Source of the DNA: Pseudofrankia coriaricola
Lineage (GTDB): Bacteria > Actinomycetota > Actinomycetes > Frankiales > Frankiaceae
Length of the DNA stretch: 44,186 nucleotides
Direction of reading: 5' to 3'
Assembly: GCF_001854805.1 (NCBI RefSeq)
Contig: NZ_MBLO01000049.1
Location: forward strand, 1 to 44,186
This document shows positions 631 through 19,085 of the stretch, piece after piece; positions within the stretch are counted from its first letter, which is position 1, and each line of letters opens with the position of its first letter. The position numbers and the translations under genes were made by a program. The notes beneath the pieces are model-generated. The model worked only from the letters and a program-made list of their open reading frames with translations, was not told the origin of the DNA and did not search any database.

Positions 631-790
631 GGGTTAGTAGTCCGTGCGCCTGACGGCGCACCCTGATCGGGTGAAAACTGTCTGTGGATCGTCCGGCTGA
701 CGTCGTGTCGACTTGGCGCGTTCCGGAGCCCGTGGGTTAGTAGGACGCTGGGGATCTGATCGACAGGCACCCGGAACTGTTGCCTCGAGC
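631..790 (+). ncRNA. Candidate bridge RNA region of IS110-A
   Basis: IS110-group elements encode a bridge RNA in the non-coding end upstream of the transposase. Here two imperfect direct copies of a module beginning GGGTTAGTAG occur at 631 and 734, 103 nt apart. Each is followed by inverted-repeat-rich sequence ending near GGGTGAAAACTG (about 669) or CACCCGGAACTG (about 768). Two similar structured modules upstream of the transposase is what a target-binding loop plus donor-binding loop would look like. This is inference: no fold was computed and the ends are approximate. Confidence 0.3.
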
Positions 791-867
791 ACGTGAATCA
801 GACTCTTTGACCTGGTAGATCCCCGCCGGGCGGTCCGCTCCGGTCGGGACCAGGCGGGAGGTGCCAC

Positions 868-1067
868 GTGGACGACGTGGTGCATGAGCGGTGCGCGGGC
901 ATCGACATCAGCAAGGGCGACGTGAAGGTCTGCGTTCGGCTGCCAGGGACGGGCCGGCGCAGGAAGAGCGAGGTCCGGACGTTCTCGACGATGACCCGGG
1001 ATCTGCTGGTGATGCGGGACTGGCTGCTCGCCGAACGGGTCACGGTGGTCGGGATGGAGGCGACCCC
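868..1067 (+). pseudogene. IS110-A transposase, N-terminal fragment
   Basis: N-terminal part of a DEDD (RuvC-like) IS110-family transposase. The start is GTG at 868 behind GGGAGG. The first catalytic Asp lies in GIDISKGDVKVCVRLP, and the catalytic Glu in VVGMEATP at the very end of the fragment, where a 239-bp insertion interrupts the codon after the MEAT motif. The gene continues at 1307-1406 (GAYWKPVFYLLE to GRKTD) and 18083-19053. Joining the pieces gives 200 + 100 nt, with the frame preserved into the third fragment. Both insertions are therefore base-exact and the gene was complete before them. Confidence 0.9.
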
Positions 1068-1306
1068 GGTTATCTGTAGTTTTCAAGATCGAATCTAGGG
1101 TTTTTGCAGGTCATGGCTGTCACGGACGCGTACGCCATGGGAGGGACAAAAGCAGCACCGAGGAGCGACGAGCGCCAGACCCGCTGTCGGCTCGGCTGTC
1201 CCCATGACGGACGGTCGCCGGATAACCCGTACGCCACGGCCGAGGAGGCGGACAAATCGGCCCGTCGACCGCCGTCGCGGACGGCCCCGCGGCGACGCCT
1301 GATTAC
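1068..1306 (+). mobile_element. 239-bp miniature (non-autonomous) Tn554-like element
   Basis: This insert begins GGTTATCTGTAG and ends GCGACGCCTGATTAC, like the intact Tn554-like transposon at 4460-8581. The first 63 bases match that transposon at 58 positions, and the last 35 at 32. It has both ends and no recombinase gene, so it is an internally deleted or MITE-like relative that the intact tnpABC proteins could mobilise. There is no target duplication: removing it restores ACC CCC GGC (Thr-Pro-Gly) in the IS110-A frame. Copies of CGTCACGGACG-like motifs near both ends may be recombinase arm-binding sites. Confidence 0.88.
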
Positions 1307-1406
1307 CGGCGCCTACTGGAAGCCAGTGTTCTACCTGCTCGAACACGACCTGGAGTGCTGGCTGCTCAACGCCCGACACATGAAGACGGTCCCCGGGCGC
1401 AAGACC
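1307..1406 (+). pseudogene. IS110-A transposase, middle fragment
   Basis: Continuation of the gene begun at 868: GAYWKPVFYLLE through LNARHMKTVPGRK, ending inside the KTD motif that supplies a catalytic Asp in IS110 transposases. The frame is broken by element 1 (1407-18082) and resumes at 18083 with GAC GTG CTG GAC (D-V-L-D). Confidence 0.9.
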
Positions 1407-1455
1407 GACCCGTTGACCGAACTAGCGGCACGTTCTGTAGTGGGATGCTCGCGCT

Positions 1456-2610
1456 GTGGTGGTTGGCCCGCTAGGTTCGCTGCTCGTGATCAACGAGGGC
1501 GAGGTGCCGCGGGACCTGGCGCGGCTGGTGGTGCCGTTGCTGGGTGGGTTGGAGTCGACTGGGGATCTGTTCGCGCCGTATCGGCTGGTTGACGGTGATG
1601 GCCGGCCGGTGGCGCCGGTCGCGGCGTTCTTCGCCGAGCTGGCGGCCTGCGGGCGGCCGGCGACGACGCAGCGGTCGTATGGGATGGATCTGCTGCGCTG
1701 GTTCCGGTTCCTGTGGGCGGTCGGAGTCGACTGGGACCAGGCGACCCGGGTCGAGGCGCGGGACTTCGTGCGGTGGCTGCAGGTGACGGTGAAACCGGCG
1801 CGGCCGCACTGGCGTGACCCGTCGGGCGACCCGCCGTCGCGGGACCGGGCTGCGGCTGGTCGGGTCAACGCGGTGACCGGCAAGCCGTCGCGGGGTGATC
1901 GGTATGAGGCGTCGACGGTGGCGCACTGCGAGAGCGTGCTGCGCGGCTTCTACGACTTCCATCTGGAGGCGGGGACGGGGCCGATGCTCAATCCGTTCCC
2001 GCTGGCGCGGCATGCCCGGCCTGGTCGGGCGCATGCGCATCACAACCCGATGGAGCCGTTCGACCGGGGCCGTCGTGGCCGGTATCGGCCGAAGGTGGTG
2101 ACGCGGGCCCCGCGCAGCATCCCGGACGACCGGTTCGACGCGCTGTTCGCCCGGCTGGGGTCACATCGTGACCGGGCGCTGGTCGCGTTCTGGGTCTCGA
2201 CCGGCGCGCGGGCCAGCGAACTGCTCGGTGCCACGGTCGGCGATGTCGACCCGGGCCAGCAGCTGATCACGGTGATGCGCAAGGGCACCCGCGTGCTGCA
2301 GCCGTTGCCGGCGGCCCCGAATGCGTTCGTGTGGCTGCGCCTCTATCAGGCGCAGTTGTTCGGGCTGGTGCCGGCGGGCCGGGACGAGCCGTTGTGGCGG
2401 ACGTTGCGCCGCCCGTTGCGGCCGCTCGGCTATGACGCGACGCGGGCGATGTTCACCCGGGCCAACGCCGGGCTGGACGCGAACTGGACGCTGCATGATC
2501 TTCGCCATACGGCGGCATACCGGATGGCACGCGATCCCGGGATGCCGTTGACCGATATCCAGTGGGTGCTCGGCCACGCACATCTGTCGACCACGCAGCG
2601 CTACTTGAAC
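1456..2610 (+). pseudogene. Element 1 tnpA-like tyrosine recombinase, 5' fragment
   Basis: Tyrosine recombinase with a SAM-like N-terminal core-binding domain (about residues 55-180) and catalytic domain (about 215-385). Catalytic residues visible are Arg in STGARASELLG, Lys in VMRKGTRVLQ, HDLRH, GHAHLSTTQ and the Tyr in QRYLN. The reading frame is lost after the Tyr. The missing C-terminal tail (VPEDVIAGVLAFHARQRD...) is found at 10575-10712, so the gene was split by about 8 kb. The closest relative in the window is the 418-aa recombinase at 16323-17579, which shares motifs and length. The start at 1456 is a guess; upstream is element end. Confidence 0.88.
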
Positions 2611-2965
2611 CAACCCTCGGGAATTGCGCCAGGCGGGCGAGAACCCGCAGGTGGGCAGGTCAGCCGGCGTGCGGAATGGTGCGGGACGGCCGGCCGGGGA
2701 CGCCGCCTGACCAGGGTGTTCTCTCGCGATCTTCTTTCTGATGCGTGATCCACCCGTCAGACCTAAATTCGCCAGTAGGGCCACTGGAGATCGTCTGGGG
2801 CTTCTCGGTTTGATCGAGGCCGGGTTGGGGACCGTTTCTCGGTTTTGGGGCAGGGTGAGGGTCCGGATGCGCTCCGGGACAGCGGGTCCGGGTCCTGTCG
2901 GGGCCGCGATGGTGACCGTGGGCGGGGTGGTGCGCCGGAGACACGGGGTGGTGGCGTGCTGACTG

Positions 2966-3268
2966 TCAGGTGGCTGGGATAGGGGTCGCGGCGCGTAGTG
3001 CGGCGAGGGTCCTGGTGAGCAGGTCACCGCGGCCGGGCGGCAGCCGCAGGAGGAGCTGTCCGGCGTGGCGGACGAGCCGGCCGGGGACCAGGAGCAGGTC
3101 GTGGCGGAAGCGGGCGGCGTGCGCGCGGCCGGCGTGCTGGTCGTAGCCGGAGATGGCCTGGAGCAGCGCGGAGATCCAGCCGGCGAGGACCGCTGCCCAC
3201 ATCCAGACCTGGTTGATCGTCGGGTCGGCGGACGGGAGGTGGCGCAGCCCGGCTCCGAGCTTGTGTTC
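2966..3268 (-). pseudogene. IS1380 element 1 transposase, C-terminal fragment
   Basis: C-terminal 100 residues of the DDE transposase whose N-terminal part lies at 9157-10320. It begins EHKLGAGLRHLPSAD and continues through MWAAVLAGWISALLQ to a stop at 2966. The junction with the upstream half is exact: 388 codons ending IETRIK plus 101 codons starting EHKLG. The split lies inside the YREK catalytic signature, between the Glu and the Lys. Confidence 0.9.
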
Positions 3269-3374
3269 CTGGTCCGAAATTGGGTCGCAACGTGGGCAGG
3301 CTCGCGCCCACCCGCGGTGACCACGCTGGGACGGGCTGCTGAGGGGGCCGACCCTGCTGGGATGGGTGTTGTAC

Positions 3375-3410
3375 GGCGCCGGCCGCGCTGGGACGGGCGC
3401 GGCCGGCGCC
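3375..3410. terminator. Perfect 14-bp hairpin after the IS110-B transposase
   Basis: GGCGCCGGCCGCGC (3375-3388) and its exact reverse complement (3397-3410) enclose the 8-nt loop TGGGACGG. It lies a few bases past the minus-strand stop at 3413. Without a clear T-run it could be a Rho-independent-like terminator, an mRNA-stabilising stem, or a structural part of the IS110 right end. Confidence 0.6.
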
Positions 3411-3412
3411 GA

Positions 3413-4459
3413 TCAGGTGGCGGCGGGGGTGAGGGTGACGATGAAGCCCTGGGCTTCGAGGGCGTGGACGTGGGTGCGCCGGACGCGGTTGGGGTCGATC
3501 CGGCGGTCGAAGTAGTCGGGGCCGAGGTCGTGGAAGTGGGCGTCGGGGTCGGCGAGCAGGTGCCAGACGATGGTCAGGATGGAGCGGCCGACGGCGACGA
3601 TGGCTTTCTTCTTGCCGCGGCGGGTGAGGCGGCGGTAGCGGGCGCCGAGGAAGGTGTTGGTCCTGCCGGCGGTGACGGCGGCTTCGCCGAGGGTGCGGGC
3701 GAGGTAGCGGTTGCCCTTGCCGGTGGAGTTGCGGCCTTTGCGTCGGCCGGCGGACTCGGACGTGATGGGGGTGAACTTCGCCCAGGAGGCGAGGTGGCCG
3801 GCGGTCGGGAAGCGGGTCGCGTCAGCGCCGATCTCGGCGATCAGGACGTGGGCGCTGTCGGGTCCGATGCCGGGGATCTCGTCGAGCCGGGCGACCAGGT
3901 CCGCATACGGCGCGACCGCCGCCTCGATCTTTTTCTCGAGGTCGGTGATGTCGGCGGTGGTGGCGTCGATGCGGGCGAGCATCCGGCGCAGCAGGTAGGC
4001 GTGGTGGTCGGTGAACTCGCCGACGAACGCCTCCTCAAGGTCGGGGATCTTGCGGCGCATCCGGGTGCGGGCGAACTGGGCGAGCCGCTTCGGGTCGCGC
4101 TCGCCGGCGACCAGGGCGGCGAGCATGGACCGACCGGAGGCCCCGAACATGTCGGAGGCGACCGTGCCCAGCTTGATCTGGGCATCCTCGAGCAGTTTCT
4201 CGACGCGGTTCATCTCCGCGGTGCGCACGTTGACGAGGTCGGTGCGATAGCGGGTCAGGTCACGCAGCCGGCGCAGGTCGGCCGGCGGGACGAAGCTGGG
4301 CCGGATCATCTGCCGTTCGGCGACCTTGCACAGCCAGACAGCGTCGATCGAGTCCGTTTTGGGCCTTCCGGGCAGGTGTCTGACGTCGCGGGCGTTGACC
4401 AGCCATGTCTCGAAGCCGGCGGCTTCCAGGACGTAGAACGGCGAGCGCCAGTAGTCCCC
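3413..4459 (-). pseudogene. IS110-B transposase, C-terminal fragment (349 codons)
   Basis: IS110-family transposase from GDYWRSPFYVLEAAGF through the KTD motif (GRPKTDSIDAVWL, catalytic Asp residues), a helical middle, and the C-terminal transposase_20 domain (LDEIPGIGPDSAHVLIAEIGAD, LASWAKFTP, RNSTGKGNRYLARTL, LGARYRRLTRRGKKKA). It joins the 76-codon 5' fragment at 8582-8809 exactly in frame (ATG GAG GCG ACG TCC / GGG GAC TAC TGG). IS110-B is therefore undamaged apart from the inserted transposon, and precise excision would restore a 424-aa protein. Confidence 0.93.
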
Positions 4460-4663
4460 GGTTATCTGTAGTTTTCAAGATCGAAGCTAGCGTTTTGGCA
4501 GGTCAGGGCCGTCACGGACGCGCCCGCGACGGGGCGGGTCGGCTCGGCCGGATCAGTGTGTGCGGACCCGGGGTTTGGCGCCGAGGCAGGGGCAGCGCCG
4601 CGTGGGGTTGTCCGGCGCCGCGCTGGGGGCGGTCGTCACGTGACGACTGTGTCCGGGTGGCGC

Positions 4664-5089
4664 TCACGGGTCGTTGGGGCTGGTGTTGGTGCCGGCCGTG
4701 GCGTTGGGGCCGAGGCGGCGGCGGAGTAGCAGGTTCTCCCCGTGGGCTGCGGCGAGCGCCTCGTTCAGCGCGGTGATCTCGGCGCGGTGGCGGGCCTTGA
4801 GTTCGCTGAGCTGCGCGGTCAGTGTCCGCACGATGTTGCTCGGCTGGTCCGGTTCCGCCGGTCGGGATGGCTGGGCGGTCTGCGCCTCGCGCAACTGCTC
4901 GATCCGGCTGCGCAGGCCGGTGTGTCGATAGAGGAAGTCCAGGGAGACCCCGGATCTGGCGGCCAGGCCGCGGAAGGTGACCGGCTCGCCGGCGGCGCGC
5001 ATCTCCTCGAGCGTCTTTTCGGCTCTGGTCACGGCGGTGGCGGTGCGCGTCGCGGTGGCCCTGCGCAGGTTGTCGAGGTTACCGGCCAT
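4664..5089 (-). CDS. tnpC: TnpC-like small accessory protein (DUF6262-like)
   Basis: A 141-aa basic protein, third gene of the transposon, starting 11 nt inside the end of tnpB, so probably translationally coupled. Residues about 35-68 (FRGLAARSGVSLDFLYRHTG) look like a helix-turn-helix. Residues about 85-125 (LTAQLSELKARHRAEITALN...) form a predicted coiled coil, and the tail is polar. In Tn554, tnpC is a small DNA-binding accessory protein that affects the efficiency and orientation of insertion, and this protein matches it in position and size. The family name DUF6262 is from memory and not checked. No truncation is seen. Confidence 0.82.
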   Translation of the reverse strand: MAGNLDNLRRATATRTATAVTRAEKTLEEMRAAGEPVTFRGLAARSGVSLDFLYRHTGLRSRIEQLREAQTAQPSRPAEPDQPSNIVRTLTAQLSELKARHRAEITALNEALAAAHGENLLLRRRLGPNATAGTNTSPNDP

Positions 5090-7247
5090 CGGGCTGGCCC
5101 CGTCCCAGGTCGCCGGTCGCGCGGCGGGCCGCGGCGTCGGTGCGGGCGACGACCCCGGCGCCGCGGACCGGCTGCCCCTGCGCGGCGGTGTCGGCGTCGA
5201 GGGCGGCGATGACCGCTCCGAGGGCGGCCGCCTCGCGGTGACGGCCGGCGAGCCAGACGTTGTCGGTGCCCATCGGGGCGCCGGTGCGGGCGGTGAACGC
5301 TGCCTGGCGGGTGTCGATGAGGGTCAGGGTGCGGCGGTGCTGGGCGCGCAGTTCGGGCAGGAACGTCGCGTCGGTGGTGAACTTGTCGCACGTCAGGCAG
5401 GCGTTCCCCCGGTCGCAGGACTGCCGTGGTGGCAGCAGGCAGTAGCCGTTCGGCAGGATCCGGTCGGTGCGGCTGTCGAGATGCAGCAGGTCGTAGAGAT
5501 CGGCCGCCGGCATGGCGAGCTCGCGGGCGTCGGCTGTGCGCTTGCGGTAGCGCAGGAACTCCGCCTCGTGGGTCTCGGTGAGGGTCTTCGCGTAGTGCAT
5601 CGTCATTGTCGGTGACAGATGTCCGAGGTAGCGCTGCACGACGTGGATTGGCACCCCGGCGTTGAGCAGGCTGGTCGCCTTCGTGTGCCTGAAGCGGTGC
5701 GTGCGCTGGAAGTCGACCAGACGGCCGACGTCGTCGCGGATATCGAGCCGGCGGGCCATCTCGGTGAGCATCCGGTGCAGGGTGCTCGACACGTAGGGCC
5801 GGTTGCCGTGGCGGTTCATCTTCTCGCCCAGGAACAGGTAACGCGGCGTCGCTCCCGGCGCGCCGTGGCGAGCGATCCATCCGGACGCCCATTCCTGTTG
5901 CGCGCGGATGATCGTCACGATCTCGCGGTCGACCAGGACCGTGTCCGGCGCACCGTCGATCTTGGTCTGTTGGTAGCGGAGCCGGGCGGCGAACGCGTCT
6001 GGCTCCTCGTCGGACGGCACCTGCGTGGCGAGCGCGCAGAGCGGGTCGTGGTCGAGCAGGAGCAGTTCGCTGATCCGCCGGCCGAGCCGGGTCTGCAGCA
6101 TCATGATCCGCATGGCCTGCTCGTCGCCGAACCCGCCGTTGGCCACCGGATCGCCGAGCATCCCGATGCTGGCCATGATCTGCGTGAACGCGGCCTCGGG
6201 GATGACGTTTTGCTCGGTGTCGCGGTGTGTCACGGGACGGGGGATCTCGCCGCGCCGGTAGAACGCCGCATGCTGCGGTCCGAGGCGCAGCCAGCCTGGG
6301 TCGCCCAGTGTCGCCGCGGCCTCGTGTTTGTGGTCGTGCATGAAGGCGTAGAGCTGCTCGACGGAGATCAGCAGGATCTTCATGTGGTTCGCGGACAGCG
6401 GCTGTCCCTCGGTCGGCCCGCGGCTGGCCCGTGAGGCACGGACGTGGCCGAGGTAGTCGAGCATGAGGGCCCGCACCCCCTCCGGCGTGTCGGCCAGGTG
6501 CATGGGACGCCCGCCGCGGCTCGCGAGGAACGCGTCGAACATGGTCATGGCGAACACCCGCTGGCCGACGGTCGACCATCGCAGCGCCCCGGTCTCGAGA
6601 CTGATCTTGCAGTACCACTGCAGGCCGAGGCGCAGCCGGGGCGCGCTGACGCGCTGGAAGTAGATCGCCTCACGGCCCTGGGGCTCGTGCGCGCGCAGCG
6701 GGATGCGGGGATCCTCGACCGGGTTCCAGGACTCCCGCTGCCACCAGGGTCTGGTGTCGTAGGCGAGGGCGAGCAGCCGCAGGAACCGCACCAAGGTCTC
6801 CCGCACGGTCTGCGTCGAGCGCGCGGTCGGCAGCCTGCCCTTGCGCCGGTGGACCGCCAACGAGAACTGCTGGCACCAGTCCCGCGCCGGCAGGTCCATC
6901 AGCGAGACGGGGCCGCGAGCGCCGAGGTCGGCGACGGCCTCGGCGAGGCGGCGGGTCAGCATCGCTACCCCCGGTAGCGCGATCTTCCCGCCCAGCTCGA
7001 TCACCCGCAGACAGCACCAGGTCAGCTCGCGGCCCATCGGCTCGGGCAGTCTCTCGACGAGGATCGCGTTGCTCGGGGCGGCCGCGGTGAACGCGTCGCG
7101 GTAGCGCTCGGGCGCCGTCGCCGCCGACAGCCGGCCCAGCCGCAGGTCATCAGGAACCGTCGCCCACAGCTGGTCCAGGATCACGGGGTCATAACCGCAC
7201 CCCGCGGCGGCCAGGTTGTCCATGACTTCCTCGACCGTGATGTTCAC
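5079..7247 (-). CDS. tnpB: TnpB-like tyrosine recombinase
   Basis: About 722 aa, the larger of the two Tn554-type recombinases. The start chosen is GTG at 7247, whose bases overlap the tnpA stop (GTGA), giving VNITVEEVMDNL. The catalytic set is visible: Arg in LGRRISELLLLDH, Lys in RYQQTKIDG, HRFRHTKATSLL (His-x-x-Arg), RYLGHLSPTM (His) and the nucleophile Tyr in MHYAKTL. A C-terminal cysteine cluster (CLLPP...CDRGNACLTC) is a likely zinc site. It acts with TnpA in cutting and rejoining the element at its target. The 3' end overlaps tnpC by 11 nt. Confidence 0.92.
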   Translation of the reverse strand: MNITVEEVMDNLAAAGCGYDPVILDQLWATVPDDLRLGRLSAATAPERYRDAFTAAAPSNAILVERLPEPMGRELTWCCLRVIELGGKIALPGVAMLTRRLAEAVADLGARGPVSLMDLPARDWCQQFSLAVHRRKGRLPTARSTQTVRETLVRFLRLLALAYDTRPWWQRESWNPVEDPRIPLRAHEPQGREAIYFQRVSAPRLRLGLQWYCKISLETGALRWSTVGQRVFAMTMFDAFLASRGGRPMHLADTPEGVRALMLDYLGHVRASRASRGPTEGQPLSANHMKILLISVEQLYAFMHDHKHEAAATLGDPGWLRLGPQHAAFYRRGEIPRPVTHRDTEQNVIPEAAFTQIMASIGMLGDPVANGGFGDEQAMRIMMLQTRLGRRISELLLLDHDPLCALATQVPSDEEPDAFAARLRYQQTKIDGAPDTVLVDREIVTIIRAQQEWASGWIARHGAPGATPRYLFLGEKMNRHGNRPYVSSTLHRMLTEMARRLDIRDDVGRLVDFQRTHRFRHTKATSLLNAGVPIHVVQRYLGHLSPTMTMHYAKTLTETHEAEFLRYRKRTADARELAMPAADLYDLLHLDSRTDRILPNGYCLLPPRQSCDRGNACLTCDKFTTDATFLPELRAQHRRTLTLIDTRQAAFTARTGAPMGTDNVWLAGRHREAAALGAVIAALDADTAAQGQPVRGAGVVARTDAAARRATGDLGRGQPDGR

Positions 7248-8518
7248 GAGCACGGTCCGATCTGCCCGCCGCCGGCCACGGCCTGGGGGCGCCAGCCCGC
7301 GGTGAACGCCCGCCAACTCGCCGCTGCTCTCGCATCGGCATCCTCGGTCACGTGGGCGTAGATCTCCAGCGTGGTCTGCACGTCGGCGTGGCCGAGCCGG
7401 CGGGACACGACATGCACCGGCACCCCTGCCAGCAGCAGGGCGGTGGCATGCGAGTGGCGCAGCCAGTGGGGCGCCCAGCCCGTCGGGACCTTCCCGGCGA
7501 GGTCGCGACGCAGCCGGCGGACCAGGTCATAGACCGTCTCCGGTCGCCACGGCGCGAACCGCGTCCCGCCCGCGAGGTTCACGAACACCGGCGCCGTGTC
7601 CAGATCGGCCACTGCCTGGTCGACGCCGGCGTCGCACAGCTGCCAGAGGTACTCGCCATAGAGCCGGTCGAGCGCGTCCGACACATAGATCCGCCGGTAG
7701 CGGCCGCCCTTGACCCGGACCCGGTGCGGATGCTCCCGCGGGACGACCTCGAGGAACGGGGTGTCGCCGCGGCCGGTGTGCCAGTCCCGGTGCTGCAGAC
7801 CCAGCGCCTCACCCAGGCGCAGGCCGCTCTCCGCCAGCAGCGACCACAGCAGCCGGTCACGCGCCTGCCCCCGCCACCTGCCCGTGGCCGCGTCGAACGT
7901 CGCGCACGTATCGCAGATCAGCTCGATCTGCGACGGCGTGAGCACCGGTGGTGCCTGCCGCGACGGGGTGCGGACCCGCACGACCGCCCGCTCCCGGCCA
8001 CGCCTGCGGGCGACGTGCTCGAGCATCGGCCGGTAGGCCGCCCGCCCGCCGTGCACCAGCCGAACGAGGTCGCCGCCCAGCGGCACGCCGTTGAGCTCGT
8101 GGTAGCGGTAGCAGGACGTCATAGCCCGCAGCCGGTTCGCGACCGTCGACTCGGCGACCCGCGCGGCCCGCGGCTCGATCGACACCACATCCGGCCCGTC
8201 CCCGCAGCGCAGCCACGTCAGAAACCCGCCTACCCCCGCCAGCGTCACCGCGTCCCAGGCCAAGCCGAACACCGCCAGATAGCTCCACCACAGCGCGAGC
8301 GCCCGCGCATACGAGCGCACCGTGTTCGGCGAGGAGCCCTGCGCCCGCAGGTACTCCAGGAACTCCTCCGCCGGCCCGACCACCCGGTAGTCCGGCCCGA
8401 GCACCGTCCAGCTCGTCGCGCCGTCCGGCAGCACGAGCCGCTGCGTCCGACACGGCTCCCCAACGTCTGTCACGTCTCGTAACGTAGCGACTACAGATTC
8501 GCCGTCCGTGACCGACAC
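7244..8518 (-). CDS. tnpA: TnpA-like tyrosine recombinase
   Basis: A 424-aa tyrosine recombinase and the first gene of the transposon, starting about 60 bp inside the right end. N-terminal core-binding domain (about residues 48-150, with LRAQGSSPNTVRSYARAL) and catalytic domain (about 190-400). Active-site residues: Arg in ESGLRLGEALG, Lys in RVKGGRYR, HWLRHSHATALL, RRLGHADVQTT and Tyr in EIYAHVT. It ends TCGTGA, overlapping the GTG of tnpB. The promoter probably lies in 8519-8581, so the terminal sequence and transcription start are close together. Confidence 0.93.
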   Translation of the reverse strand: MSVTDGESVVATLRDVTDVGEPCRTQRLVLPDGATSWTVLGPDYRVVGPAEEFLEYLRAQGSSPNTVRSYARALALWWSYLAVFGLAWDAVTLAGVGGFLTWLRCGDGPDVVSIEPRAARVAESTVANRLRAMTSCYRYHELNGVPLGGDLVRLVHGGRAAYRPMLEHVARRRGRERAVVRVRTPSRQAPPVLTPSQIELICDTCATFDAATGRWRGQARDRLLWSLLAESGLRLGEALGLQHRDWHTGRGDTPFLEVVPREHPHRVRVKGGRYRRIYVSDALDRLYGEYLWQLCDAGVDQAVADLDTAPVFVNLAGGTRFAPWRPETVYDLVRRLRRDLAGKVPTGWAPHWLRHSHATALLLAGVPVHVVSRRLGHADVQTTLEIYAHVTEDADARAAASWRAFTAGWRPQAVAGGGQIGPCS

Positions 8519-8581
8519 GCCGGACCGATTCCCGACCTGTCAACCTCCGTCACGGACGGCCTCACGGCGACGCCTGATTAC

Positions 8582-8809
8582 GGACGTCGCCTCCATGATC
8601 ACTCTGGTGACGCCGAGGGTGCGCAGGTGGTCGGCCATCCCGACCAGCGAGCGGGTCATGGTCGGGTAGGTGGCGACCTCCTGGAGCCGTCGGCCCGGCC
8701 GGTCGTCGTCGGGGACCCGTACACAGCAGGTCAACTCCGCCTTGCCGATGTCCAGCGCGGCGATCCGTTGGATGATCTCTTCGGTTTCCTGGGTCTCCTT
8801 CAGCACCAC
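8582..8809 (-). pseudogene. IS110-B transposase, N-terminal fragment (76 codons)
   Basis: Starts at GTG 8809 behind GGGAGG. Contains IAALDIGKAELTCCVRVP, with the first catalytic Asp, and ends VTRVIMEATS, with the catalytic Glu, exactly at the Tn554-like insertion. The rest of the gene is at 3413-4459. Confidence 0.92.
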
Positions 8810-8929
8810 GGGGTGCCTCCCGTCTCCGGTGGGTCCGGACAGGTGGCTGCCCGCAGGAGCCGCGGGGCAGGATCGAATCTGGTCCTCGTGCTCGTGGCAC
8901 ACGGAAGGGCCCACAGGTGCGGCTCCCAG

Positions 8930-9125
8930 CGCCCGACTTGATCACGGCCTGAAGCGACCACGGAACCTCGACGTCGGCGGGCAGCCGCCAGAATCGTCAA
9001 CCTGCACCGGGCCCCCATCAGGAACGCTGGAACGCCGGCGCACACCGAGCCCACAGCTGCCTCCAGCCCGAGACCCGAAGCGATCACCACAACCCCGGCA
9101 GCGGGCTGCCGCCAGAAATTTCAGC
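8930..9125 (-). ncRNA. Candidate bridge RNA of IS110-B
   Basis: Between the IS110-B left boundary (9156) and its transposase start (8809) lie two imperfect copies of a 45-47-nt module, at 9074-9118 and 8948-8994, 126 nt apart. On the minus strand both open TTCTGGCGGC, contain a GC hairpin, and end near GTGGT(G)(A)TCGCTTC(G/A)GG. A bridge RNA with two related loops would have this layout. The 9-mer GACTTGATC at 8935-8943 also spans the left element/target junction (9155-9163), as a target guide would. The ends of the RNA are guesses; only the repeat and the match are observed. Confidence 0.42.
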
Positions 9126-9156
9126 CCGGAACGGGCTTCCCCAAGGGAACGGGGGA

Positions 9157-10712: not shown

Positions 10713-12925
10713 CCACCGGCACCGGACAGCCGGCCGCGCCGCCGCGCGCGGCGGCGCCGGCGCCGGGCCGGGCGGCGGCCAAGGCGACCGGGGCGCGGCT
10801 GCTGGCCGCGTTCCCGCCCCGGCCGGTCGTGTCACAGTGGCCGGCGACGCAGGCCGGCCGCACCGAGGTACTGGCCCGGGTGCTCGCGGCGCCGTTCGCT
10901 CTGGACAGTCCCGCCAGCCAGCAGACCCGCCGGCTGGGGGTGCTGGCGGTGCTGAGCTGGCTGCAGATCCAGGCCGGGGACAGCTGGCAGCAACGCTGGC
11001 AGGCCAGCGGCGCTGAGGACCTGCTCGACTGGCGGAACGCGGTCACCGCCGGCCCGCGGGGGCAGCTGCCGCACCTCGGTCCCGGGCTGCTGGTCCTGGT
11101 CTGCGCCGATGTGATCCGGCCCGGTCTCGGCTTTCTGCTGCGGTTCGCCCCGGCCCGGCGCGGGCTCGCCGCCGAGATGGCCCGCACCCGTGACCCCGTC
11201 ACGTTCGCCGCGTTCGACCAGCTGTGCGCGCAGGGCCAGGTGGGGCTGCAGACCGGGCAGCAGGCACTGGGCCGCATCGCGGTCATCATGGCCGCCAAGG
11301 GCGGGCCGGCGGACGCGGTGCGCGTCGGTGACTGCGTCGAGCTCCTGCAGGCCGCCGCGGACCTGCGTGTCTCCTCGGGTTCCGAGGCGCACGCGCACAG
11401 CCCGCTGTTCTACCAGCTGCTGCGCCGCCATGGGGTGCTGGGCGAGGACGCGCCCGCGGCGATCGAGATGTTCTCCGGACGTGGGCAGCCCAGCTGCGAG
11501 CAGCTGATCGACCGTTACCGGATCGCGTGCCGTCCGGTGCGTGACGTGCTGGTGGACTACCTGCGCGAACGCCAGCCGTCGGTGGACTTCTCCTCCCTGC
11601 AGCGCTTCGCCTACCTGCTCGGCAAGCTGTTCTGGGCCGATCTGGAAGCCCACCACCCGGGCCTCGACTCGCTGAAACTGCCCCGCGACGTCGCGGCCGC
11701 GTGGAAGCAACGGGTGATGACCCGCACCCGTGCCACGACCACCCCCGACGGCGAGCAGGCCGAGGTCGTCTCGACGCGGCTGGACGGGCGCAGCGTGCTG
11801 TCCGCGGTGCGTGCCTTCTACCTCGACCTCGCCGAGTGGGCCGACGACGACCCGGCCCGCTGGGGCCCGTGGGCGGTGCGCTGCCCGGTGGCCGCCAGCG
11901 ACGTCTCGCACAAGAAGGACCGGTCCCAGCGCAAGGCCCGCATGGACCAACGCACCCGCGAACGGCTGCCGGTCCTGCCCGCGCTGGCCGCCTGGGTCGA
12001 GACCGAACGCGCCCGCACCGCCGCACTGCTCGCCGCCGCCGAGGCCACCCCGCCCGGCGAACTGTTCACCGCCGCCGGCTCCGAGACGCTGCGCCGGACG
12101 GTGATGAGCACCCTGACCACCGGCCGCCTCTGGGCCGAACCGTCCGGCGGCGGCCGACGCCGGGACCTCACCTTCGAAGAACACCGCGGCTTCTGGACCT
12201 GGGCGACGGTCGAAGTGCTCCGCCACAGCGGCATACGGATCGAGGAGCTCACCGAGCTGTCGCACCACAGCCTGATCCAGTACCGGCTGCCCGAGGGCGG
12301 GCAGCTGATCCCCCTGCTGCAGATCGCCCCCTCCAAGACCGACACCGAACGGCTGCTGGTCATCTCACCCGAGCTGGCCGACGTCCTGTCGACCATCGTC
12401 GCCCGCATCCGCGGCGGCGGATCACGAGTGCCGCTGGTGGTCTCCTACGACAAGAACGAGCGCGTCTACAACGCGCCGATGCCGCTGCTGTTCCAATGGC
12501 GCCGACGCCTGGAGAACCGGCCCGTCACCGAGACCTCGCTGCGCGGCTACCTCGATGACGCGCTCACCGCGCTCGGCATCAAAGACGCCTCCGGCCAGCA
12601 GCTGCGCTACACCTTCCACGACTTCCGCAGGCTGTTCATCACCGACGCGATCCTGCACGGCATGCCGCCACACATCGCCCAGCTCGTCGCCGGCCACCGC
12701 GACATCAACACCACCATGGGCTACAAGGCCGTCTACCCCGAAGAAGTGATCAACGGACATCGGGCGTTCCTTGCCCGTCGCCGCGCGCTACGGCCCAGCG
12801 AGGAATACCGCACCCCCACCGACGAGGAATGGAACCAGTTCACCGGCCACTTCGAGCACCGCAAGGTCTCCGTCGGCGACTGCGGCCGCTCCTACGACAC
12901 GCCCTGCATCCACGAGCACAGCTGC
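10709..12925 (+). pseudogene. Element 1 tnpB-like tyrosine recombinase, 5' fragment (739 codons)
   Basis: Starts GTG at 10709, overlapping the tnpA-like stop. The N-terminal part resembles the 799-aa relative at 13927-16326. The catalytic part has Arg in SGIRIEELTELSHHS, Lys in APSKTDTERLLV, HDFRRLFITDAI, LVAGHRDINTT and the Tyr in MGYKAVYPEEV. The fragment ends inside the C-terminal cysteine motif (CGRSYDTPCIHEHSC), where element 2 inserted. The remaining 93 codons are at 17748-18029; together they would encode 832 aa. Confidence 0.9.
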
Positions 12926-13040
12926 TTAACCGAAATGATCTTGCTGTCCTCGTGGGCCGCCTTCCCTGGGAGGACCGCTCACGGAGAGTACGCACATCAG
13001 ATTGCCGTCGCTCGGGCTTCGGGCGTGTCGCGGGAGCGGC

Positions 13041-13901
13041 TCATGGATCGTGGCGGTTGCCCGAGTTCGGATCGTGGTTGGCGTAGGTCACGGCGAGGTT
13101 GACCGCGGGTCGGTAGGCCTCGACTTGGTCCGGTGTCCACCCGGTGGGTCCGAAGGCCGCCTCGTGGGTGGCGATCCGGTAGATCAGGGCTCGGACGAGC
13201 ATCTGACCCCAGGCTGGCAGGTGCGCCCATCGGGCAGCGAGGTCGGGTGAGGCTCCGTACCAGCACAACGCGTCGGCGACCGCGACGGCCGAGGCCCAGG
13301 ACGCGGGGCGCCAGTACGCGGGCCAGTCGATGATCGCCGGTGGCAGCCCGGCGGCGAACAGTACGTTGCCCGGCAGATCGCCGTGCACCACCTGCGGGGT
13401 GAGGTCGACCGGACGGCGGCTGCGTGCCAGTGGTGCCAGCAGGTCCAGGGCCGCCGGGCAGCCACGGACCGGGAGTTCTTCCCACGCGACCCTGTCCCCA
13501 TAAGCCCACGGGTCGTCGCGGAGGTCCAGGAACGCCGGCCGGGGCAGGTCCGCGATTGCCGCGTGGAAGGCCGCCCCGGCGCGGAGCACGTCGTCTTGCC
13601 GGCTGACGTCTGGCTCGCCCGCAACGAGTTGGCACGCCTCCCAGCCGTGGGCCACCCATGCCCCGTCCAGCGTCTGGACGGGGCGGGCAACGCGGAACTC
13701 GGTGGCGTCCGGCAGGCCGGTGAGCACCTCGGCTCGCCAGAGCGTTTCCGCCAGGAGCTCCACCGGTTTGAGGACGAGCTGGCCAGCTCGCCAGGTCCCA
13801 CCTTGGCCGCCGGGCAGTACGACCGGGTCGTCCGCGACGCCGAATGCCGCCAGCACGGCATCTGACGGGCTCGCGACCGGAGAGTTCACATCCAAGATCA
13901 T
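13041..13901 (-). CDS. TIGR02569-like aminoglycoside-phosphotransferase-fold protein
   Basis: 286 aa, ATG at 13901, 25 nt after the end of the tnpB-like gene. It has the kinase-like fold of the APH/choline kinase superfamily: a nucleotide-binding start with GGQGGTWRAG and Lys45 (LVLKPVE), the catalytic loop HGDLPGN (His163, Asp165, Asn169), and a metal-binding Asp182 in IIDWPAY where kinases usually have DFG-like sequence. It resembles the actinobacterial family I know as TIGR02569, whose substrate is unknown to me. Its position inside a Tn554-like element suggests it travels as cargo, so antibiotic phosphorylation is possible but unproven. An upstream frame runs into tnpB, so internal starts are also possible. 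Confidence 0.8.
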   Translation of the reverse strand: MILDVNSPVASPSDAVLAAFGVADDPVVLPGGQGGTWRAGQLVLKPVELLAETLWRAEVLTGLPDATEFRVARPVQTLDGAWVAHGWEACQLVAGEPDVSRQDDVLRAGAAFHAAIADLPRPAFLDLRDDPWAYGDRVAWEELPVRGCPAALDLLAPLARSRRPVDLTPQVVHGDLPGNVLFAAGLPPAIIDWPAYWRPASWASAVAVADALCWYGASPDLAARWAHLPAWGQMLVRALIYRIATHEAAFGPTGWTPDQVEAYRPAVNLAVTYANHDPNSGNRHDP

Positions 13902-13926
13902 AATCTGATGGGTGGCGCCTCTGGGG

Positions 13927-16326
13927 TCAGGCCCTTGTCTGCTCCGCTCGTCCGGCGGCCGAACGCAGGTCGGGCATGCCCAGGTGGACGGCGGCAACGC
14001 GGGCAGTCTCGCGCATGGTCGCGAGTTTCTGCTCTGCGGCTGCCAGGGTGGTCTGGATCGCGGCGACCTCGCCGAGCCATCCCTGTTCTTTGGCCTCTTG
14101 GAGCCGGTCGAGGAGATTGGTGCGGATCCCTTCCAGTCGCGGCATCTGATCGGGGTCGACCCGGAGCAGCGGGCACCTGACACACGCGTTTTCGTGCGCG
14201 CAGGGGGTTCCGTGGTCACGGCCGCAGGTCCCGAGGGCGACTTTCCGTAGTTCGAAATGGGCGAGGAACTCGTCCCATTCCTGGGTGGTGATGTCGCGGT
14301 ATTCCTCGCTGGGCCGCTCGGCGCGGCGGCGGGCGATGAAAGCCCGGTGGTGGGATATCACGTCCTCGGGGTAGATCGCGGCGTAGCCCATTGTCGTGTC
14401 CACGGTGGAGTGACCGCAGACCTTGGCGGCGATGTGCGGAGGCAGTCCGGAGCGGATGGCGTCGGTGACGAAGATCCTGCGGAAGTCGTGGGGCCGCCAT
14501 TCCAACGGCTGGTCTCCTGCGGTGATCTGGGCGGCCTGTGAGGTTGCGACGAGGCACTCTCGGATGTAGCTGCGGGTGAGAGGACGGTCTTCGGTGCCGT
14601 ACCGCCGCTGGAACAGGAACGGCATCGGCGGGCTCCAGGTCTGCTCGAACACGTCGTAGGCGCAGACCAGCGGCAGGGCCGCTTTCCCGCCACGGACCCG
14701 GAAGATGATCGTAGTCAGGACGTCGGCGAGCTCGGGCGAAACCAGAAGCAGCCGCTCGGCGTCGGTCTTGGACGGGGCGACCTGCAGCATCGGCACGACC
14801 TCGCCGGTGGTGGGCAGCGTGTAGGCGACGAAACTGTGGTGGGTGAGCTCGAGCATCTCCTCGATGCGGATCCCGGTGTGCCGCAAGACTTCCACCGTCG
14901 CCCACGACCAGAACGCCGCCGACTCCTCGTGGGTGAGGTCCCGCCGCCTGCTCGTGGCCAGGTCCACGGCATAGACCCGGCCGGACTCACCCTGGCGGCA
15001 ACGTCGGAACTGCTGACCGCCCCCGTTGAACCGCCCCTCGGCGGCGGTCGCCTTGGCGGTGTTCACACGCTGCTCGGCGTCCTTGTGCTGCTGTTCGACG
15101 GCCCGTAGCAGCGCCGGCAGCAGGGGCAGTTGGGTCCTGGTGCGCTGATCCATCCGCGACTTGACCCGTGACTTGAATTTCTTCTGCGTCACCTCGGCCG
15201 CTTTGATCGGGCACGGCGCGACCCACGTCGCCCACCGGGAGGGATCGTCGGCGGCCCATCGGGCGATGTCCTCGTAGAAGGCCCGGACGAATACCAGCTC
15301 GCTGCGGTAGTTCACGCGGGGGCGTACCGGCCGGCCGTCGGCGTCCCGGATGTGGGCCAGCCGTTCTTTCCATGCCTGCGCGACCTCGGGGGCCAGCCGT
15401 AGCGAGTCGATGCCGGGATGGTGGGTCTCCAGGTCGCGCCAGAACAGTCTGCAAAGGTTGCGGGCGATGGAACGCAGCGAGGTGTGGTCGAGGTCGGGTG
15501 CCCGCTCGGTGAGGTACTCGACCAACAGGTCGCGGACGGGCCGGCACTCGATGCCGTAGCCGTCGACGATCTGTTCGATGCTGCGACGGCCGTCGAGCCG
15601 CAGCACTCGCAACCGCTCCGGTGCCGCGGCCGGAAGCACGCCGGTCTTTTTCAGCAACGCGTAGAACAGCGGCCTTCCCGCGCTGCCCCGGAAATGGTGC
15701 TCCTGCAGAGCTCTGGTCAGCTCGACACAGTCGCCGAGAGTGATGTCGCTGACGAGGCCGCCCTTGCGGACCAGGATCCAGGTGACTTTGTTCAGGGCGT
15801 CCGACCTCGCCCAGCCGGCGGCGTGGTCGGCGCGGAGGCCGAGGCGCTGGAAGCCGTCGGGGTCGATAGCCGCCCGAGCCTCGGCGAGCATCAGCGCCTG
15901 GCGTTGCCGCAGCAGCCACGGGTAGCTGGGACGGACGACCTGCCCGGCGACCAGGAGCGCCACCCCGCAGCACAGTTCGTCACGATGATGGCGTCGAGCC
16001 GGGGCGCACCCCTTCAGCGGCAGGTCAGCCCAGCTGGAACCGGCGGTGTCCGCCCCGCTGGCCAGCCACCGCTCCTGCCAACTGTCCCCGGGCTGGCCCT
16101 CGAGCCAGTCCAGGACCCTGTTCAGGCCACGCCGCCGGGTCTTGTCGCGGGTGCGGCCCGCGCTCGGTTCGGTGAACAGACCAAGCAGCCGCTCGACCAG
16201 GGCCTCCCGGCTCTGGCGGGTCTGCCACCAGCTCTGCTCGCAGGGCCGCAGGTCCAGTTCAGCCGGCCGTCCCACCTCGACGGTGCTGGTCTTCGCGACC
16301 GTGGCGGCAGGCGCCGCGACGGTCAT
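13927..16326 (-). CDS. Element 2 tnpB-like tyrosine recombinase
   Basis: 799 aa, intact. It starts at ATG 16326, overlapping the tnpA-like stop by 4 nt (ATGA). Catalytic residues: Arg in HTGIRIEEMLELTHHS, Lys in APSKTDAERLLLV, HDFRRIFVTDAI, KVCGHSTVDTT and Tyr in MGYAAIYPEDV. The C-terminal motif CGRDHGTPCAHENACVRCP is a likely zinc knuckle, followed by a coiled-coil-like tail (LLDRLQEAKEQGW...). It is the closest relative of the broken gene at 10709, into whose matching cysteine motif element 2 inserted. It probably works with the 418-aa partner as an obligate pair. Confidence 0.92.
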   Translation of the reverse strand: MTVAAPAATVAKTSTVEVGRPAELDLRPCEQSWWQTRQSREALVERLLGLFTEPSAGRTRDKTRRRGLNRVLDWLEGQPGDSWQERWLASGADTAGSSWADLPLKGCAPARRHHRDELCCGVALLVAGQVVRPSYPWLLRQRQALMLAEARAAIDPDGFQRLGLRADHAAGWARSDALNKVTWILVRKGGLVSDITLGDCVELTRALQEHHFRGSAGRPLFYALLKKTGVLPAAAPERLRVLRLDGRRSIEQIVDGYGIECRPVRDLLVEYLTERAPDLDHTSLRSIARNLCRLFWRDLETHHPGIDSLRLAPEVAQAWKERLAHIRDADGRPVRPRVNYRSELVFVRAFYEDIARWAADDPSRWATWVAPCPIKAAEVTQKKFKSRVKSRMDQRTRTQLPLLPALLRAVEQQHKDAEQRVNTAKATAAEGRFNGGGQQFRRCRQGESGRVYAVDLATSRRRDLTHEESAAFWSWATVEVLRHTGIRIEEMLELTHHSFVAYTLPTTGEVVPMLQVAPSKTDAERLLLVSPELADVLTTIIFRVRGGKAALPLVCAYDVFEQTWSPPMPFLFQRRYGTEDRPLTRSYIRECLVATSQAAQITAGDQPLEWRPHDFRRIFVTDAIRSGLPPHIAAKVCGHSTVDTTMGYAAIYPEDVISHHRAFIARRRAERPSEEYRDITTQEWDEFLAHFELRKVALGTCGRDHGTPCAHENACVRCPLLRVDPDQMPRLEGIRTNLLDRLQEAKEQGWLGEVAAIQTTLAAAEQKLATMRETARVAAVHLGMPDLRSAAGRAEQTRA

Positions 16327-17579
16327 CGGGTTCCCCCGCCGGAGGCCGTCGTGCCGAACAACGTAGCGAGCACCTCGGGCCGGTAGCCAGGCGCTGGCGG
16401 CGCCGGTGGCCGCTCCCGCTGAGCGCGCTGCCGCTCGTGATGGGCCAGGACATGAGCGATGACCTCGTCAGGGGTCGGCGCGATGTAGATCTCAGTGGTG
16501 GAGATGTGGGCGTGCCCGAGGACCCATTGGACGTCGGCCAAGGTCAGGTTCGGGTCGCGGACCATCCGCTTGGCGGCGCTGTGCCGCAGGTCGTGCAACG
16601 TCCAGTTCGCGCCGAGAACACGGTTGGCTCGGGTGAACAGCATCCGGGCCGCGTCGTAGGCCAGCGGCCGGAACGGGCGGCGCAGCGTCCACCACAACGG
16701 CTCGTCCGACCCCCAGGGGACCAGGTCCCGCATCTGTTGCTGGTAGAGCCGCAGCCACACGAACGCGTCCGACGACGCTGGGAGCCGCTGCAGTGCCCGG
16801 CTGCCCTTGCGGACCACACCGATCACCTGGTCCTCCGGGGTCACCTGCCCCTGACAGACGCCGAGCAGCTCCGAGGCGCGGGCGCCGGTGGAGACGTAGA
16901 ACGCGACCAGAGCCCGGTCCCGGTTGCACGACAGGGCCGCGAACAGGTCGTTGAACGCCTGGTCGGGAATGCTTCGCGGGGCCGGTTTGGGCTCCTTGGG
17001 CTGGTAGACGGCCCGCCGCGACGGCCGCCGGAACGGCTCCATCGGATTGCGGTGGGCGCCCAGCCGTCCGTCCTCCATGCCCCCGGCCTGCGGGAACGGG
17101 TTGACCAGCGGCCGGCCGTGCATCTCCCGGTGGTACTCGTAGAACGACCGGATCACCGCACGCGCGTGCCGCCTGGTCCGCGCAGCGTAGTTCTCCCCGG
17201 GCGTCGCCTTCCCAGTCACCGGATTCACCCAGCCCGGGACAGGCGCATCACCGCGACGCTGCCGCGGCGGCTTCTTGACGGTCTTCAGCCACAGGGCGAA
17301 GTCCCGCGCCTCGGCGCGACCGGCACGATGCCACGGCACCTCCACCGCCTGCAAGAACCGGAACCACATCAACAACTCGTAGGCATAGGACCGCAGCGAC
17401 GCCGGGCTGGCGTCGTCAGCGAGCATGTGATGCAGGAATTCGGCGACCGCCGGCACCTCGACACCCTCGCCGTCCACAACACGGAACGGCAGCAGCGGAT
17501 CAGCGGTCTCCTCAACCCGGCCGACCCTCGCAATCTGCAGCAATGCAACATTTCGAACCGTCGTGCTGCGTTCCGACAC
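16323..17579 (-). CDS. Element 2 tnpA-like tyrosine recombinase
   Basis: 418 aa, GTG start at 17579 (VSERSTTVRN). N-terminal core-binding domain about residues 45-165, catalytic domain about 205-375. Active-site residues: Arg in STGARASELLGV, Lys in VVRKGSRALQ, HDLRHSAAKRM, VLGHAHISTTE and Tyr in EIYIAP. It ends in a proline-rich tail and overlaps the tnpB-like start. Upstream 17580-17747 is the element end and presumably its promoter. Confidence 0.92.
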   Translation of the reverse strand: MSERSTTVRNVALLQIARVGRVEETADPLLPFRVVDGEGVEVPAVAEFLHHMLADDASPASLRSYAYELLMWFRFLQAVEVPWHRAGRAEARDFALWLKTVKKPPRQRRGDAPVPGWVNPVTGKATPGENYAARTRRHARAVIRSFYEYHREMHGRPLVNPFPQAGGMEDGRLGAHRNPMEPFRRPSRRAVYQPKEPKPAPRSIPDQAFNDLFAALSCNRDRALVAFYVSTGARASELLGVCQGQVTPEDQVIGVVRKGSRALQRLPASSDAFVWLRLYQQQMRDLVPWGSDEPLWWTLRRPFRPLAYDAARMLFTRANRVLGANWTLHDLRHSAAKRMVRDPNLTLADVQWVLGHAHISTTEIYIAPTPDEVIAHVLAHHERQRAQRERPPAPPAPGYRPEVLATLFGTTASGGGTR

Positions 17580-17747
17580 CCGCGCCTCCGCAAGCCGCCA
17601 TAGTCGACGACACGCGATGACAGCAGATCCGCGCCATCACAGGGAGTAATCTCAAACCGACCCAGGGCCCAGACCAGCCGCAGAGGCACTGTCCGTCGAC
17701 CTCGGCAGGAGTCCAGGAAGCCGCCCAGTTGGTTCGGTCAACGGGAC

Positions 17748-18029
17748 CTACGCTGCCCGCTCCTACGGCCAGACCCGGCCGCCCGCGACCGTCTTCTCCA
17801 CATCCGCGACAACCTCGTCGCCCGCATCGCCGAAGCCGAAACCCACCACTGGCTCGGCGAAGCCGAAGGACTCAAGGTCAGCCTCGCCGGCGCCCAGGCC
17901 AAGCTTGCCCAGATAAACCAGATCATCAACCACCGCCGACAGACCGTGCAGCTGGGCATCCCCACCTTCGCCGAGGCCGCCGGCCGCGCCAGCACAAGCC
18001 CACCACCCGCAAACCAGGTCAATCCATGA
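17748..18029 (+). pseudogene. Element 1 tnpB-like recombinase, 3' fragment
   Basis: Begins CTA CGC TGC CCG (L-R-C-P), completing the Cys motif cut at 12925, then LLRPDPAARDRLLHIRDN and a coiled-coil-like stretch to the stop at 18027-18029. The frame matches the upstream fragment exactly. The C-terminal organisation mirrors the intact 799-aa relative. Confidence 0.9.
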
Positions 18030-18082
18030 CCCGTCATATCGCTCAAAACGACTATTCCCCAGACATTTTCTAGTTCGGAGAA

Positions 18083-19053
18083 GACGTGCTGGACTCCGAG
18101 TGGATCTGCCGACTCATCGAGCATGGCCTGGCCCGTCCCTCGTTCGTACCCCCGGAGCCGATCCGTCAGTTGCGTGACCTGACCCGCTATCGCACCGAGA
18201 TCGTCCGGGAGCGGACCCGGGAGGCGCAGCGGCTCGAGAAGCTCCTCGAGGACGCCGGGGTCAAGCTGTCCCTGATCGTCTCCGACCTGCTCGGGGTCTC
18301 CGCCCGCGCGATGCTCGAGGCGCTGATCGCCGGCGAACGCGACGGCCAGGTGTTGGCCGAGCTCGCGCTGGGCTCCATGCGCCGCAAGCGGCCGATCCTC
18401 GCCGACGCGCTGACCGGCCACTTCGGTGAGCATCACGCGTTCCTTGCCCGCACGATGCTCGACCGCATCGACGCCTGCCGCACCACCGAGGCACGCCTCG
18501 ACGCCCAGATCGACGAACAGGTCCGGCCCTTTCGCCGTCAACTCGAACTGATCGAGACCGTGCCCGGCGCGAGCCGGCGCACCGCGCAGGTCATCCTCGC
18601 CGAGATCGGCGCCGACCCGGCACGGTTCCCCTCGCCGGCCGCGCTGGCGTCCTGGGCAGGGATGTGCCCGGGCAACAACCAGTCCGGAGCCACCGCCCGC
18701 AACGGGCCGACCCGCCACGGCGACCCCTGGCTCAAGGCCGCCCTCGGCCAGGTCGCCGTTTCCGCCGGCCGCACGAAGGCACGAAGGGGACCTACCTCGC
18801 GGCCCGGTACCGGCGGATCGCCGCCCGCCGCGGCAAGAAACGGGCACTGGTCGCTGTCGGCCACTCCGTTCTCACCTCCGTCTGGCACATGCTCACCACG
18901 GACCTGCCCTACCAGGACCTCGGCCCCGACCACTTCGTCAATCGCCTCGACGACCGGGGCAAGGCCCGCTCCGCCCGCCGACTCGTTGACCAGCTCACCC
19001 AACTCGGCTACCACGTCACCCTCCAGCCCGCCCCCGTACCGACACCTGGGTGA
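18083..19053 (+). pseudogene. IS110-A transposase, C-terminal fragment with frameshift
   Basis: Resumes the IS110-A transposase: DVLDSEWICRLIEHGLARPS (catalytic Asp region), LTRYRTEIVRERTREAQRLE, LIETVPGASRRTAQVILAE, LASWAGMCPGNNQS. At 18771-18786 the 8-mer GCACGAAG is duplicated in tandem, shifting the frame at GRTK. The expected continuation (GTYLAARYRRIAARRGKKRA...) is in another frame and runs to the stop near 19051. The duplication is a separate inactivating lesion, so this copy is dead even without the inserts. Confidence 0.9.
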
Positions 19054-19085
19054 CGAAACAGGGGACGACTCACTGGGTTTTCGAA

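Follow-up and report, generated by a model that had tools for sequence, protein, structure and literature searches.

The window analysed here is a stretch of 44,186 nucleotides from contig NZ_MBLO01000049.1 of Pseudofrankia coriaricola (assembly GCF_001854805.1, a draft genome of 11.2 Mb in 280 contigs), and it carries a nested tower of mobile elements (Table 1). The base of the tower is an IS110 family insertion sequence, IS110-A, which holds a miniature element, MITE-1, and a two-recombinase transposon, element 1. Element 1 is itself interrupted by a second transposon, element 2, in tnpB and by a mini-element, X, in tnpA. X holds an IS1380 family element, the IS1380 element holds a second IS110 family member, IS110-B, and a Tn554-like element lies innermost, within IS110-B. 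The initial annotation had described the same order, which we confirmed, except that it overlooked X, a layer of 271 bp between element 1 and IS1380. The relative chronology of insertions that it read from the nesting holds, with X as an additional layer.

Table 1. Elements and genes of the nested tower (coordinates refer to the window; L, G and C numbers are our handles for loci, genomes and contigs)
Feature	Coordinates	Strand	Evidence and remarks
IS110-A, tower base	632-19089	+	transposase pieces 868-1065, 1305-1409, 18083-19053; PF02371, PF01548; NF033542 on piece 3
MITE-1, 239 bp	1066-1304	+	after codon T66 of IS110-A transposase, between MEAT and GSYW; empty site in G004
Element 1, two-recombinase, Tn554-related	1407-18085	+	about 3.9 kb without inserts; left end GTTGACCGAACTA, right end TAGTTCGGAGAA
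Element 1 tnpA, first piece	1456-2611	+	80% to L047 TnpA residues 1-376; PF00589
Element 1 tnpA, second piece	10576-10712	+	62% to L047 TnpA residues 378-419
Element 1 tnpB, first piece	10709-12925	+	78% to L047 TnpB residues 1-736; PF00589
Element 1 tnpB, second piece	17748-18029	+	71% to L047 TnpB residues 737-821
Mini-element X, first part	2612-2762	+	in element 1 tnpA just after STTQRYLN; 100% to C163 copy
Mini-element X, second part	10449-10575	+	100% to same C163 copy
IS1380 family element in X	2756-10455	-	PF13701; GTCAGAC at both junctions (2756-2762, 10449-10455)
IS1380 transposase, N-terminal piece	9157-10320	-	DNA collinear with L187
IS1380 transposase, C-terminal piece	2966-3270	-	DNA collinear with L187
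IS110-B in IS1380 transposase gene	3270-9157	-	PF02371; junction from L187
Tn554-like element, innermost	4460-8581	-	in IS110-B after codon matching T66 (after MEAT)
Tn554-like TnpA, 424 aa	7244-8518	-	PF00589; 68.6% to Rhodococcus opacus plasmid open reading frames
Tn554-like TnpB, 745 aa	5079-7316	-	PF00589
Tn554-like TnpC-type protein, DUF6262, 141 aa	4664-5089	-	PF19776
Element 2, uninterrupted	12924-17747	-	in element 1 tnpB at CxHEHxC motif (CIHEHxC), reversed relative to tnpB
Element 2 TnpA, 418 aa	16323-17579	-	PF00589, PF02899
Element 2 TnpB, 799 aa	13927-16326	-	PF00589
Element 2 passenger, TIGR02569 family protein	13041-13892	-	NCBIfam 143.4 bits, cut-off 136.75

Each piece of a broken gene was searched separately and without joining, and 'in frame' here means collinearity only. 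A single collinear gene was found in this way for every broken gene, for IS1380 at the DNA level. An earlier stage of the tower was also found, as the congeneric genome G004 has two uninterrupted copies of IS110-A (L228 and L229, 93-97% identity). In L228 the window intervals 631-1065, 1305-1409 and 18083-19093 lie next to one another and overlap by 3 bp (97%, 93% and 94% identity), and the transposase pieces match residues 1-66 (868-1065), 66-99 (1305-1406) and 100-419 (18083-19050) of the intact G004 protein at 94-98% identity. The initial annotation had held that the scattered fragments rejoin to complete genes. The pieces are collinear with single genes elsewhere, but IS110-A differs from its G004 counterpart by an 8-bp tandem duplication near 18780, which shifts the frame, and rejoining therefore gives no complete IS110-A gene. 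Its first piece ends, and its second starts, 2 bp from where they had been placed at first, and the element runs from about 632 to 19089. The element 1 pieces are collinear with single genes of a Rhodococcus qingshengii locus, L047, the reference for both TnpA (1486-2610 and 10578-10703) and TnpB (10709-12925 and 17748-18002). IS110-B is collinear with a G004 protein over residues 7-66 (8585-8770) and 67-413 (3422-4459). For IS1380, L187 has 10455-9157 directly followed by 3270-2754 (79% and 77% identity); its C-terminal piece gave no protein match to the L187 open reading frame used. The two parts of X are foreign to tnpA and to the IS1380 element, save for the duplicated GTCAGAC, and contig C163 of the same genome has an uninterrupted, 100% identical copy of X.

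IS110-A has the DEDD RuvC-like and Transposase_20 domains that define the IS110 family (PF02371 and PF01548), exceeds the NF033542 cut-off on its third piece and aligns with IS621, and IS110-B matches PF02371, with PF01548 on its piece at 23.7, under the cut-off of 29. The IS1380 element matches PF13701 (DDE_Tnp_1_4 transposase) and shows a 7-bp overlap, GTCAGAC, on an empty site (L185); its terminal repeats were seen by eye only. One end of this element (10360-10455, about 95 bp) has 96-97% identical copies on C234, C126, C148, C52 and C46, possibly representing a miniature relative. Adjoining short and long recombinases, which mark the Tn554 class, are present in the Tn554-like element and in element 2, and in element 1 the recombinase genes are in pieces, with PF00589 in each. 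A DUF6262 protein may be the TnpC partner in the Tn554-like element, and elements 1 and 2 showed none. Pfam and NCBIfam scans of a subset of the window's open reading frames revealed no drug-resistance gene. The two-recombinase elements of the tower belong to the known Tn554-related class of actinobacterial transposons, of which Van Houdt et al. 2012 (PMC3414803) gave a description.

Of the seven insertions, five are at conserved motifs of other recombinases, namely the catalytic-Glu motif of IS110 (twice), a catalytic-Asp codon of IS110, the Cys/His motif in a TnpB of Tn554 type and the catalytic-Tyr motif in a TnpA. MITE-1 and the Tn554-like element follow the matching T66 codon in IS110-A and IS110-B, respectively, in opposite orientations relative to the transposase gene, and element 1 occupies the GAC codon of D100 (KTDVLD) in the IS110-A transposase, with GAC at both ends and an empty site in G004. 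When the G004 transposase is aligned with IS621, MEAT falls on the E60 motif and KTD on D102, D100 being the equivalent of IS621 D102 (whole match E 2.2e-10; the stretch bearing MEAT and KTD alone gives only 11.7 bits). Mutating E60, D102 or D105 of IS621 is reported to abolish recombination (PMC11208158). Element 2 interrupts the Cys/His motif of the element 1 TnpB. X follows STTQRYLN in the element 1 TnpA, which by eye we take to be the active-site (catalytic-Tyr) motif of tyrosine recombinases. The IS1380 element and IS110-B, which lie in X and in the IS1380 transposase gene, follow no motif target rule in this window. A miniature element in the outer shell had been recognised from the start and is present as MITE-1; no gene was recognised within its 239 bp. 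MITE-1 is a relative of the Tn554-like element, as its ends match the ends of the latter at 88% (74 bp) and 86% (49 bp) identity.

Relatives of elements 1, 2 and X in other genera are located at the same motifs. The element 1 relatives L047 and L133 are also in IS110 genes, at the identical codon, and form one TnpA clade with element 1 (Shimodaira-Hasegawa-like approximate likelihood ratio test, SH-aLRT, 100). A Frankia torreyi copy of element 2 (L062; 96.3% identity over 4,826 bp) lies at the same tnpB motif in a different outer element and in the opposite orientation relative to tnpB. This F. torreyi locus (L237/L062) is a two-storey nest of its own, with an element at a PCMT-like gene (by eye) and the element 2 copy inside its tnpB. 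X or X-like ends were found in four more genes, beside the end motif of tyrosine recombinases (L256 by annotation; L185, L257 and L258 by eye). X-like ends occur on seven plasmid records from Streptomyces and Pseudonocardia, of which five were examined, three for the left end and two for the right end (L259, L260). In the left-end cases, L256, L257 and L258, each X-like end borders a different reading frame, all three frames terminate at a motif resembling that of tyrosine recombinases, and TnpA/TnpB-type genes lie near the X-like end in L257.

A wider survey of element 1 and 2 relatives was made by a scan with 14 aligned TnpA sequences. Of its 344 confirmed candidates the best 80 were taken, which supplied 77 loci, and 15 plasmid loci were added to give 92. 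The left end GTTGACYGAACTA was found in 86 of the 92 loci (at most two mismatches per 12 bases), and 80 of those had at least 100 nt of flank. Mobile-element enzyme genes account for 54 of the 80 flanks (TnpB 25, Tn3 11, IS110 6, IS21 3, TnsA-like 1, and two each of IS1380, IS256, ISKra4 and reverse transcriptase), other genes for 16 (DUF317 3; Ku, CpaF-type ATPase, prepilin peptidase and endonuclease VII 2 each; GGDEF, NUDIX, DUF6624, TrmB-like and DUF6192 1 each), and 10 are unassigned. Genes were assigned through sequence search, Pfam and NCBIfam matches and record annotation, some of them by eye, and the tally includes weak matches. Names given by eye or weakly are those of L065 (Tn3), L077 (ISKra4), L090 (A24), L095 and L123 (DUF317) and L104 (endonuclease VII), and the assignments of L091 (PF01478, under cut-off) and L125 (IS1380, E 0.0057) are weak. 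IstA at L051 is likewise by eye or weak, supported by an istB annotated nearby, and hence so is L109, where the match ends 199 nt before the element. The TnpB matches of L069 and L110 stop 33-40 nt before the element, and the L054 flank is annotated as DUF6192. Two readings were rejected and their flanks counted as unassigned: a TnpC target at L053, seen by eye, found no counterpart in NCBIfam, and L132, read as TniB-like, matched another ATPase model.

Among the TnpB flanks that reach the element end, 22 of 23 stop at the CxHEHxC motif, the exception being L100, and both orientations occur at the motif (13 vs 9 of the 22). Where the far half of the target gene was recovered, a TTCRG-type right end lay at, or at most 26 nt from, the far boundary in 14 of 16 loci and was absent in L068 and L069 (55 nt examined). 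Target choice was then compared with a quick TnpA tree of 94 rows, 74 labelled with 25 target labels and 20 unlabelled. The label requires 26 changes on this tree, where the minimum is 24 and shuffled labels gave a mean of 48.0, with 0 of 200 as low; near-copies contribute to this agreement. TnpB-motif targeting accounts for four changes and IS1380 and Ku targeting for two each, and targets have therefore changed or recurred. Some odd rows were kept: the branch of L066 is very long, the letter composition of L066 and L071 is unusual, L068 has four stops, and L059 and L071 are placed deep, probably as frame-shifted translations.

The boundaries, the empty sites, the recurrence of sites among relatives of elements 1, 2 and X, and the agreement of targets with the TnpA tree are observed, and from them we consider it probable, at roughly 85%, that the tower grew mainly through the insertion of site-specific Tn554-related transposons whose attachment sites lie at codons of conserved motifs. 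The initial annotation treated the tower as a record of successive insertions; its chronology stands, and this probable cause, with five of the seven insertions at recombinase motif codons, was missed. Each lineage would have its attachment site at the codons of one conserved protein motif, and in this window the motifs concerned all lie in recombinases of other mobile elements. The target would be the IS110 catalytic-Glu motif for MITE-1 and the Tn554-like element, the third catalytic Asp of IS110 for element 1, the Cys/His motif of Tn554-type TnpB for element 2, and the catalytic-Tyr motif of tyrosine recombinases for X. Such motif sites occur across many diverged elements and are seldom needed by the host. 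Each insertion is a new carrier that may hold the target of another lineage, and nesting would therefore be expected. The motif sites may be recognised directly by TnpA and TnpB. X could be a deletion derivative of an autonomous relative, and both MITE-1 and X may be mobilised by recombinases of their relatives. Targeting of this kind would presumably bring the elements a selective advantage.

Mobile elements are densely packed in this region, transposase genes are dispensable, and IS1380 and IS110-B show no target rule here. These facts would suit unselective insertion, in which elements land anywhere and only hits in dispensable DNA, transposase genes for example, survive. We consider this improbable, because insertions fall on single motifs in diverged genes and in both orientations, and because the target follows the TnpA phylogeny. 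In addition, in 36 of the 80 flanks the match to a reference recombinase comes within 6 nt of where the element ends, compared with 110 of 1360 random cuts (about 8%); the cuts were made in 68 of the 80 loci, and the Tn3 (L050) and IstA (L051) references came from tested loci, which makes two hits circular. Identical copies also occur at one motif in two different genes. In genome G026, the elements of L233 and L234 are identical at 4319 of 4319 positions in two NlpC/P60-like genes, whereas their 300-bp flanks agree at only 156 positions. The names PCMT, LanC and NlpC/P60 for targets were given by eye. Family elements in NlpC/P60-like genes lie at a WGG motif in L233, L234 and L240 (by eye).

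A second possibility is that a short DNA sequence is recognised which is merely common in certain motifs, so that all genes bearing a similar sequence, and not one gene family per element, could serve. In keeping with this, the element of L098 is in a GGDEF gene and its closest kin by TnpA are in DUF317 genes. Most target groups with several members correspond to one or a few clades of the TnpA tree, and we regard this explanation, too, as having little chance of being right. An assembly artefact, in which repeats were misjoined in a fragmented draft where X and the IS1380 end are repeated, is very improbable, since the split genes resume on the far side of their junctions at the right residue or base, the overlaps on empty sites are small and regular, and junctions of these kinds are seen in other genomes too.

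Several observations weigh against targeting of conserved recombinase motifs as a general account. The locus sample, being the best 80 of 344 candidates, is biased towards element 2. With 16 of the 80 flanks in other genes and 10 unassigned, recombinase targeting is the majority habit of the sampled clade and not a rule. By our criteria the far half of the target gene was recovered in only 16 of 88 loci (the 86 and two window elements), recovery being limited by contig ends and insert length. The TnpB insertion motif is well but not exceptionally conserved, as its 9-residue windows rank at about 165-241 of 793; the idea that the site is the most conserved stretch of the protein was rejected on these ranks. 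Site-specific insertion was found for the element 1 and 2 clade, whereas for the MEAT target of MITE-1 and the Tn554-like element the evidence is the two insertions in this window only. The nearest relatives of the Tn554-like element (68-69%) lie in a DUF4193 gene, which is not a transposase (L044 annotated, L043 by eye), and others lie in genes that look by eye like SRAP and HNH (L045-L046). Relatives of its TnpA are few: among 35 genomes of the order, all coded as a single family, only the genome itself and G010 (40% identity) gave matches at E 1e-40, and in a sample of the class the matches at E 1e-80 numbered 8 of 393, counting the window's own.

A broader reading is that actinobacteria harbour a guild of hyperparasitic transposons, with attachment sites at codons of catalytic or essential motifs in the recombinases of other elements, which would spread by riding on competitors and disabling them; we find the arguments for and against it evenly balanced. 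The same even balance applies to the proposal that lineages of the guild have reached different motifs of IS110, Tn3, IS21, IS256, IS1380, reverse-transcriptase and tyrosine-recombinase genes. If the guild exists, its elements may act as natural suppressors of insertion sequences. Motif-codon targeting would turn a nested tower into a testable rule of which element enters which, and where to the codon, and it points to how a site-specific transposon could gain many targets at low cost to the host. It may also explain why some transposase genes in the genomes of actinobacteria are broken, and natural sets of tyrosine recombinases with diverged, known targets would be material for the study of how specificity evolves.

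Tn554 of Staphylococcus and its actinobacterial relatives likewise have a short and an abnormally long tyrosine recombinase, with or without TnpC (PMC3414803). As for the Famint36/41 group of that study, no TnpC was recognised for elements 1 and 2; the study also lists plasmid pRHL2 of strain RHA1 (NC_008270), with 59% identity to the element 1 TnpA (hit H65). Its section on Tn554 gives several attB sites as merely supposed, and that section holds no target genes and no motif rule. The SE elements of Gammaproteobacteria also combine an ordinary and a large tyrosine recombinase with target specificity and have a 6-bp footprint, but as described in PMC10214605 they differ by extra Tfp and Srap genes, by their hosts and by their few selected locations. 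RIT elements have tyrosine recombinases in a row, and one RIT type lies in the transposase gene of a Tn6049-related transposon (PMC3414803). They differ in having three recombinase genes; two per element were recognised in the Tn554-related elements of the tower. GInt islands are likewise site-specific and have several recombinases, and diverged GInts lie at related ssb genes in different hosts; they differ in being cargo islands with a four-gene operon, and transposases are not the target described for them in PMC5385486. No account of a motif-codon target rule was found in the open-access literature searched, which is weak evidence of novelty, as subscription papers were mostly outside the search.

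Three further observations concern the surroundings of the tower. Beside IS110-A, at 107-316, lie three degenerate 21-nt repeats about 60 bp apart, perhaps with a fourth seen by eye, which look like the end of a type I-E-like CRISPR array. A periplasmic binding protein gene adjoins the tower at 19086-20621 and has ten DNA matches of 80-85% elsewhere in the same genome. Outside the tower, at 32052-34271, a large serine recombinase gene (Resolvase, Recombinase and zinc ribbon domains) perhaps marks another integrated element.

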